Shown piece by piece: positions 24,306 to 26,787 of a stretch of DNA of 42,826 bases. The translations under genes and the position numbers were made by a program. Position 1 is the stretch's first letter; the number at the start of each line of letters is the position of its first letter. Origin of the DNA: Candidatus Zambryskibacteria bacterium RIFCSPHIGHO2_01_FULL_46_25 (lineage in GTDB: Bacteria > Patescibacteriota > Minisyncoccia > Phycocordibacterales > Zambryskibacteraceae); the NCBI GenBank assembly GCA_001825155.1, contig MHVH01000001.1:1-42826 (forward strand). Direction: 5' to 3'. The notes under the pieces were generated by a model. That model was not told where the DNA came from, did not search any database, and saw only the letters and a program-made list of their open reading frames with translations.

Positions 24306-25342
24306 TTATATCATTTGTTTAAGTTTGTAAGCATTCCCATGCTTGAGCATTCCTAAATACGAAGCTCTCGATTCTTCAGACGGATTGATACTTAAATTCT
24401 TCCTCATTCTTCTCTTCGTCACCGTTCTCAAGACTCTATGGTCTGGAAAATGCACCCAACCCAAAAAATCTACACCAGAAGAAAGAGTTTTAATAAAAAC
24501 TTTATCGGGATGAAGTTGTAGTTTTAATTTTTCATTTAGGAATAGTTCGATATATCGAACTATTCCTACCAGATGATTTTTGTCGTGAGATAGAAAAACA
24601 AAGTCATCGGCGTATCTAATGTAATACCTTATCTTCAGTTTATGCTTAACGAACTGGTCAAATTTGTTCATGTAGACATTAACCAAAAGTTGAGAAGTGA
24701 GGTTGCCCAGAGGTAATCCTTTACTAGGAGCAGTTTCAAAGCTTTCGATAATCTGAGTTAGAAGCCAAATGACATTCTCGTCCTCGATGTAATTCAATAC
24801 GATATATCGTAGTGAATCGTGGTCTATGGAAGCGAAGAATTTTTTGATGTCACACTTCAAAATCCAGTATTGTTTGGTGTTGTTTTTAGACACTTTGCCT
24901 GCAAAATACTTGAATCTTTCCAGAGCTTTGTGCGTGCCTTTGTTTATACGGCAAGAATATGAGTCGGAGATGAACTTTTTATCGAAATAGGGATAAAGAA
25001 CTCTGTAGATAGCATGATGCAAGAGTCTATCTCGGACGGAAGCTTTGTGGATGTTTCTGGGCTTGGGGTCAGAAATGTTGAAGGCGTGATAAGGACCGTG
25101 GGTGTAGGTCTTATTTTTTAAATCCTGATGGAGAGCAAGGATATTGTCCATCAAATTTAAATGGAACTCTTGGACGTCTCGTTTACCACGCTTGCCATTT
25201 AGGAATTCTTTCCAGGCTTCAAGCAGATTCTCAACCGAGATGATATGCTCATAGGTATGACAGAACCTATTAAAAGCCCCCCCCCCAACGGGTTTTGCCC
25301 GGAGTTTTGGAAAAGATTAAGTGTGCTTATGTTGTCTGGCAT
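24306..25342 (-). CDS. DGR reverse transcriptase, start out of frame across a C10/G10 tract
   Basis: RT domains are intact: CDIKKFFASID (catalytic Asp), GLPLGNLTSQ (the GxxxSQ motif that marks DGR enzymes, where other RTs have GxxxSP) and YYIRYADDFVFL (YADD), then VDFLGWVHF. It copies the TR RNA with adenine errors. The conserved N-terminal part (TYEHIISVENLLEAWKEF, GKRGKRDVQEF) is in frame back to 25276, but no ATG or GTG exists there; the only in-frame start is TTG 25154, which would discard it. One extra G in the tract 25277-25286 would join ATG 25342 (MPDNISTLN) and give 345 aa. The stop lies 12 nt before the surface-protein gene. Conservative start: 25154. Confidence 0.93.
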
Positions 25343-25660
25343 AAAACTCATATAATTCTACCCCAAGTAAACCGATATACACTCGGAAACAAGATCGATA
25401 AGTTATTTATCGAGATAATAGGAAATGTCAGCGCTGCATCTTTCCTGCCGAAAGAGGAGAGGTTACCGGACGTGAGAAAATCAATCAGGAAACTGGACGT
25501 ACTTAAAATCTTGCTAATGGTCTTATGGGAGACAAAATCGATTACAAACAAAAAATATATTGAAATTTCTTCATTCCTAGATGAAATCGGAAGAATGCTT
25601 GGAGGTTGGCGTAATCAAATTTTAAAACAAAACTCCCAAACCGAAGTCTGGGAGAAATGA
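25257..25660 (+). CDS. avd: DGR accessory protein Avd (four-helix bundle), start out of frame across the C10 tract
   Basis: The recognisable protein runs from VLEKIKCAYVVWHKTHI through RYTLGNKIDKLFIEII, SIRKLDVLKILLMVLWE and ISSFLDEIGRMLGGWRNQ. This is the four-helix-bundle Avd/23S-IVP fold, a positively charged pentamer that binds RT and nucleic acid in DGRs. As sequenced its only start is TTG 25295. ATG 25257 (MTEPIKSPPPQR) lies one base out of frame and would join exactly if the C tract 25277-25286 had 11 instead of 10 C. It is on the strand opposite to RT, TR and target, ends 5 bp before the TR, and its 5' end overlaps the RT 5' end. Confidence 0.9.
25277..25286. repeat. C10 homopolymer in the overlapping starts of RT and avd
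   Basis: Ten C on the plus strand. With 10, the RT frame hits TAA at 25317-25319 with no ATG or GTG start after it, and ATG 25257 is out of frame with Avd. With 11, RT runs from ATG 25342 and Avd from ATG 25257. Both predicted spans are one nucleotide short of a multiple of three (1037 and 404 nt). Confidence 0.85.
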
Positions 25661-25665
25661 GAGAT

Positions 25666-25766
25666 TTGCGCACGCCCGCGAAGCGGTAGTTCCGGTTCCA
25701 CCTATTGTCGTTCCGGTTGACGTTCACCCTACGCTTGCCGTCGTTGCGGTTGAAGATCGCGTAGCA
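25666..25766 (-). other. DGR template repeat (TR)
   Basis: 101 nt aligned without gaps to the VR at 26086-26186 (offset exactly 420). The minus strand reads AAC/AAT/GAC-rich codons (CYAIFNRNDGKRR, VNVNRNDNRW, NRNYRFAGVRK), the classic TR design in which AAY codons are randomised. Of 22 differences from VR, 16 are at TR adenines. The 19 bp 25672-25690 are identical to VR (IMH-like end). TR lies 5 bp from the avd stop. Plus-strand sequence further left would be antisense avd, so a TR RNA read leftward continues through the complement of avd into RT. Confidence 0.93.
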
Positions 25767-26081: not shown

Positions 26082-26696
26082 TCACTTGCGGACGCCCGCG
26101 AAGCGGTAGTGCCGATACCACCTGCTGCCGCGCCGGCGGACGTCGACGCCGCGCCTGCCGCCGCCGCGGCCGAAGATCGCGTAGCAAGCACGACCCCGCT
26201 TGTCTCGCCACTGAACGGCAACAGGTCGCTCGTCGGCGAAGGCGGGATCGTCGGCCATGACTTGTGCCACAGCGGCGGGGTCGGGGCGAAGACCGTGGGC
26301 TTCATACTCGCGGTCAAGTTCGTCGACTGTCGGGTCGTAGTCGAGTTCGAAGAACTCGACTCTATCCTTCGCCAGCCCCTCGAGCGGCATCTCGGCGAGG
26401 ACTTCCTCGTCGATGTACCACTTGATGCGACCGGTGGCATCAACCACCTGTGCCGCCGTCTTGGTGCGGTCGACCTTGACCGCCCGACGAATGATGTTCG
26501 ACACCATCTCGACGCGCTTCTGGAACAACGCGAACATTTCGCTCGCGAGCTCCTGCATGCCGAGAACCGTTTGCACAGTCTCCGCCTGGAACTCTCCGGC
26601 ATGCTTCTCGAGCAACGCCCGGTAGTTCGCGACAGCCTTGTTGATCTGTCCCGCCGTTGTAACCTGCTGTTCGGACGGGATCATGGTTTTAGCCAT
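26082..26696 (-). CDS. DGR target (variable) protein, 204 aa
   Basis: The VR forms the C terminus (about residues 170-204: CYAIFGRGGG, RRGVDVRRRG, SRWYRHYRFAGVRK) and ends right at the TGA, as in C-type-lectin-fold DGR targets. The N-terminal 165 residues are mostly helical (VANYRALLEKHAGEFQAETV, ELASEMFALFQKRVEMVSNI) without signal peptide or membrane helix, and acidic after that. Start ATG 26696 (MAKTMIPSEQ) is preferred over the in-frame ATG at 26759, because the -10 box covers 26759 and GGGAGA lies 9-14 nt upstream of 26696. The gene is GC-rich compared with its neighbours. Ligand unknown; the variable surface presumably binds diverse partners. Confidence 0.93.
   Translation of the reverse strand: MAKTMIPSEQQVTTAGQINKAVANYRALLEKHAGEFQAETVQTVLGMQELASEMFALFQKRVEMVSNIIRRAVKVDRTKTAAQVVDATGRIKWYIDEEVLAEMPLEGLAKDRVEFFELDYDPTVDELDREYEAHGLRPDPAAVAQVMADDPAFADERPVAVQWRDKRGRACYAIFGRGGGRRGVDVRRRGSRWYRHYRFAGVRK
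26086..26186 (-). other. DGR variable repeat (VR)
   Basis: 3' end of the target gene, aligned to TR over 101 nt. Compared with TR it changes 12 residues: Asn to Gly, Gly, Asp, Arg, Arg, Ser, Tyr and His; Asp to Gly (twice); Lys to Arg; and Arg to Gly. Non-adenine differences also exist (TR plus-strand positions 25671, 25695, 25704, 25725, 25728, 25731). Confidence 0.93.
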
Positions 26697-26758
26697 GGCG
26701 TCGTCTCCCAAGCTGCGCTGGCATGCGGTAAATCCGCACCCATCAGCTTCTGTTTTCA

Positions 26759-26787
26759 ATTATACACCCAAATTAGATTTATGTCAA
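26759..26787 (-). promoter_or_regulatory. Perfect-consensus sigma-70 promoter of the DGR target gene
   Basis: On the minus strand TTGACA (26782-26787), 17-nt spacer, TATAAT (26759-26764). The predicted start near 26752 gives a leader of about 55 nt. The transcript could run on through the TR toward RT if the hairpin at 26003-26030 is passed. Confidence 0.88.

Follow-up and report, generated by a model that had tools for sequence, protein, structure and literature searches.

Diversity-generating retroelements (DGRs), gene cassettes which hypermutate selected proteins, and phase variation by simple sequence repeats (SSRs) are each well known, the latter from the tetranucleotide contingency loci of Haemophilus and the poly-G/C phase-variable genes of Campylobacter and Neisseria. 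In the DGR of Bordetella phage BPP-1 the avd gene, the template repeat (TR) and the RT gene all run in one direction, and no repeat switch is known. How cellular DGRs avoid continuous mutation is a question to which we know of no answer. The combination of the two systems appears to be unreported, in so far as no account of an SSR-switched DGR was found in open-access full text (subscription papers were outside the scope of the search). The cassette described below resembles the Patescibacteria-only DGR clade 2 (Roux et al. 2021, PMC8144416) in its RT, Avd, TR, variable repeat (VR) and adenine-biased substitution, in being cellular and in having a target without known domain, but the part of that publication available here mentions neither an SSR at the avd start nor a head-to-head arrangement of RT and avd. 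The same part reports an activity significantly below average for the clade and names masking by purifying selection as an explanation.

Here we analyze a window of 42,826 nucleotides from Candidatus Zambryskibacteria bacterium RIFCSPHIGHO2_01_FULL_46_25, in which a C10 tract lies at the start of avd. We consider it highly likely that this tract is an SSR contingency locus within the 5' part of the avd coding sequence and that the DGR is phase-varying. The anatomy of the cassette, the conservation of the repeat, the reading frames, their coupling and the non-detection of MutS are all observed directly; slippage in living cells, ON/OFF control at translation and the effect on mutagenesis are inferred, and no reads, within-population mixture or expression data support them.

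The cassette and its start frames

The window cassette satisfies all criteria for DGR membership, namely a DGR-type RT, an adenine-biased TR/VR pair and an Avd (Table 1). The RT matches RVT_1 at 9.5e-24 and its two motifs are present in the sequence. The TR/VR pair is 101 nt long with 22 mismatches, 16 of which fall on TR adenines, and adenines make up 27 of the 101 TR bases. The Avd protein reaches 40.1 bits against PF22296 (cut-off 40) and matches NF033474 at 4.7e-14, yet stays under the NF033474 cut-off of 80. The target gene had no match in Pfam or NCBIfam. The cassette shares with BPP-1 the set of Avd, RT and TR-to-VR mutagenic retrohoming; unlike in BPP-1, avd is found on the other strand, sited between TR and RT (24306-25766), so that a transcript running through TR and RT would include the antisense of avd.

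Table 1 Features of the DGR cassette in the window.
Feature	Position	Strand	Basis or remark
RT body (RVT_1; GNLTSQ and YADD motifs)	24306..25154	-	ORF, profile match
RT N-terminal block, conserved (...CHTYEHIISVENLLEAWKEFLNGKRGKRDVQEF...), without in-frame ATG/GTG/TTG	25155..25276	-	Comparison
ATG, proposed avd start (MTEPIKSPPP...)	25257..25259	+	Out of avd frame at C10, in frame at C11
C10 mononucleotide repeat (G10 on RT strand), proposed switch	25277..25286	.	Counted; position and hypermutable type kept in relatives
avd body (PF22296 bAvd, NF033474 DivGenRetAVD)	25287..25660	+	ORF listed from TTG 25295
TTG 3' of tract, possible length-independent avd start	25295..25297	+	
TAA closing RT frame at C10	25317..25319	-	
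ATG starting RT at C11	25340..25342	-	Second in-frame ATG at 25349-25351
Template repeat (TR)	25666..25766	-	
DGR target gene, VR C-terminal	26082..26759	-	
Variable repeat (VR), 3' end of target gene	26086..26186	-	

The frames on both sides of the tract depend on its length. At the assembled C10, translation from ATG 25257 is a dead end of 32 aa, and the RT frame crosses the G run and reaches the TAA without meeting an ATG, GTG or TTG, leaving TTG 25154 as the first ORF start, with loss of the conserved N-terminal residues. At C11 an Avd of 134 aa opens from ATG 25257 and RT opens from ATG 25342 (or from the in-frame ATG at 25351), while C9 and C12 open neither gene in the window. A preliminary description of this DNA had given the run of ten C, the start and stop coordinates and the frames at C10 and C11, including the truncation of RT at C10, and all of it was correct on recounting. 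The two start codons are embedded in each other's genes: opposite ATG 25257-25259 the RT frame has a conserved His codon (CAT), and opposite ATG 25342-25340 the avd frame likewise reads CAT (His). The window satisfies one criterion for a contingency locus, a repeat whose unit is not a multiple of three, placed in the 5' coding region, with its length setting the frame. We propose that C10, as assembled, represents OFF and that one extra C gives the ON state, with the caveat that the TTG just 3' of the tract could start an Avd of 121 aa at any tract length.

Repeats at the avd start in related loci

RT relatives were gathered from 198 related genomes, the GTDB genomes, IMG/VR and further regions, and avd was placed by tblastn using a panel of queries. 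Both genes could be positioned in 173 loci, and in every one of these avd was on the strand opposite RT (the comparison did not cover TR); after dropping duplicates and loci containing N we retained 161 distinct head-to-head loci, nearly all from Patescibacteria. An SSR was present at exactly the avd-start spot in 145 of them. It was poly-C in 131 loci, with lengths from 7 to 14 and a mode of 9, and at the same site the remaining loci had repeats of CT (10 loci), CA (2), GTCA (1) or AACC (1) spanning 10-42 nt. One locus, L063, was scored as A9, although a C9 is present there too. Among the 145 loci no unit of three or six nucleotides was seen, nor any other multiple of three. The preliminary description had held that its idea would fail if relatives lacked a homopolymer and started the two genes elsewhere; comparison of tract and frames in homologous loci, which it had proposed as a check, gave the opposite result.

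The repeats cluster at this place beyond chance expectation. Within 615 kb of DNA from the relatives, C/G runs of at least 8 occurred 71 times at the avd start versus twice elsewhere, and dinucleotide repeats of at least 7 units occurred 6 times at the avd start versus 0 elsewhere. Both C/G runs away from avd are in the flanks of a single locus (L078), one a C10 at +1909 from avd and the other a G8. The repeat type has changed at least 13 times on the RT tree. Near-identical loci from the same species were sought as direct proof of length variation, and the genome collections contain one genome per species; pairs of different loci with 82-90% DNA identity have unequal tract lengths (C12/C10, C9/C10, C11/C10 and C9/C6).

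It could be argued that the out-of-frame C10 is merely a homopolymer error of the assembly or that the cassette is inactive and decaying, and a single extra C does indeed restore both frames, as expected from an error. The preliminary description had named such an error as the plain alternative. As a general account it is contradicted by the recurrence of the same kind of repeat in about 145 loci from independent assemblies, 14 of them with di- or tetranucleotide repeats, and the RT and avd genes are otherwise open and conserved, and the second cassette of the same genome (see below) also has a tract. We therefore find error or decay scarcely tenable.

Selection at the protein level for a Pro-rich linker was ruled out, as the unit switches to CT, CA, GTCA and AACC, and kinship to the G/C-rich homing element near VR was ruled out by the position of the repeat and by the units other than G/C.

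Frame of avd and coupling to RT

The frame of avd differs sharply between loci with and without a repeat. The 16 SSR-free loci comprise a sister group, phage-borne cassettes and a few loci with short or interrupted tracts (the head-to-head relatives from IMG/VR are SSR-free), and all 16 have an upstream ATG in the avd frame, versus 43 of the 145 SSR loci, or about one third (Fisher p = 2e-8). Related loci are not independent, and p-values are thus only indicative. In 141 of the 145 loci a frame opened by ATG reaches the SSR within 60 nt, whereas only 41% of shuffled upstream sequences give such a frame. From the frames with and without a repeat we conclude that the natural start of avd is upstream and that the repeat sets its phase. 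Changes between ON and OFF number 37 and are scattered on the RT tree. The lengths differ between relatives and in-frame and out-of-frame states are both common, which satisfies a second criterion for contingency loci.

A potential in-frame start 3' of the repeat is present in 84 of the 145 SSR loci (TTG only in 47), and TTG is enriched at a conserved Leu 3' of the repeat, where it makes up about half of the Leu codons versus 16% in the Avd body. These starts suggest that the OFF state could be leaky. They are also what would be expected if the repeat did not code for protein but belonged to a promoter or leader separating two divergent genes, with avd starting 3' of it at TTG or GTG and the spacing tuning expression. 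SSR control of the spacing type is known for meningococcal nadA and porA, according to the parts of the two sources available here (PMC2791445, PMC3639595). We nevertheless regard a leader element as improbable, since the other 61 loci have no start 3' of the repeat, the SSR-free relatives without exception start upstream, ATG-led frames run into almost all of the repeats, and nothing in a spacing device would rule out units of three.

The involvement of RT varies. In 112 of 144 loci RT is independent of the repeat, because translation of RT can start (at ATG, GTG or TTG) without crossing it or because a stop codon closes the RT frame before the repeat is reached; this indicates that only avd would be switched in most relatives. 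In the other 32, the window included, RT lacks a start on its own side, and its frame continues into the repeat without a stop (overlap-type loci). Where RT and avd each open at a single length class in such loci, the class was shared in 15 of 15, as follows from each ATG being the antisense of the other gene's in-register His codon. The earlier proposal that one slippage event would act on both genes thus stands for the window and for the 15 unambiguous overlap-type loci, but does not extend to most relatives, and the slippage itself remains an inference. We lean towards the view that one SSR puts RT and avd under joint control by way of their antisense-overlapping N-termini, each start codon being the other's His codon, so that a slippage mutator gates a targeted retro-mutator, cassette by cassette, in Patescibacteria. 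The coupling could be a by-product of the conserved His codons and not selected.

The avd gene was assembled in the OFF state in 26 of the 32 overlap-type loci, among them the window. With both cassettes of the window genome and most overlap-type loci OFF, correction at the RNA level might take place. Under programmed transcriptional slippage, RNA polymerase would slip on the C/G tract and bring a constant share of the transcripts into frame whatever the length in the DNA; the excess of out-of-frame overlap-type loci agrees with it, and poly-C of 9-11 is a plausible slippage site. Against it, the CT, CA, GTCA and AACC repeats of 14 loci are poor sites for RNA polymerase and good sites for DNA slippage, and the repeat length varies freely, and we give this explanation very little weight.

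Proposed switching and the genome of the window

MutS (MutS_V, PF00488) was not detected in the window genome (G000), and it was over the cut-off in only 1 of 41 genomes of the genus and family, in a search that found it in 11 of 14 known genomes used as control. With MutS undetected in nearly all genomes, simple repeats should all be unstable. Judged from the sequences, slipped-strand phase variation would explain the unit sizes, the one third of loci in frame, the different picture in SSR-free loci, the ease with which one repeat type replaces another and the lack of a detected MutS.

In the proposed mechanism, replication slippage would alter the repeat length by one unit, and the gain or loss would bring the upstream ATG and avd into or out of a common frame, with Avd made (ON) or not made (OFF) as a result. 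In the window and the other overlap-type loci RT too would start past the repeat, on the opposite strand, and both genes would be opened by one and the same length class. Since Avd is required for retrohoming, we propose that switching of the hypermutation cassette is stochastic and reversible; random slippage at the tract probably turns the entire machinery on and off, although this is inferred. As in known SSR contingency loci, the repeats are mono-, di- and tetranucleotides but never trinucleotides, are placed at the 5' coding end and leave about one third of the loci in frame, in small genomes without detected MutS. The differences are that control would fall on an indispensable component of a targeted hypermutator, where the known loci control surface or modification genes, that some loci would switch two antisense-overlapping genes at once, and that the hosts are Patescibacteria. 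If true, the avd slippage switch would be a population-level restraint on DGRs in a large uncultured bacterial group, and target diversity should track the repeat state. It would also account for the low DGR activity of the Patescibacteria clade, as given in the available part of the report (PMC8144416); this low activity fits frequent OFF states, but other explanations exist.

Only five C/G runs of at least 8 occur in the window genome (582 kb); each of its two DGR cassettes has one at the avd start, and another two are not at an obvious gene start. The second cassette is split by a contig break between the end of contig 6 (L124, G000:C6:118000-120238) and the start of contig 3 (L121, G000:C3:1-5000), and has its own target, TR, RT (80% identical) and avd, the last with a C9 tract out of frame. 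Its avd start reads MTEPLKSPPP, compared with MTEPIKSPPP in the window. Several relatives also have two or more cassettes with unequal tract lengths, suggesting that the switches may act independently.

Elsewhere in the same genome a surface protein with beta-helix and Ig-like domains (L123 2032-4101, G000:C5:40131-42200) has the fifth of these runs, a G10, in its signal-peptide region, where an ATG-led MTKLLR is followed by the G10 and then by the remainder of the signal peptide (LLGNSFKLLLVFTVAFGGFFVANSAQA) one base out of frame. From this arrangement the protein looks phase-variable.
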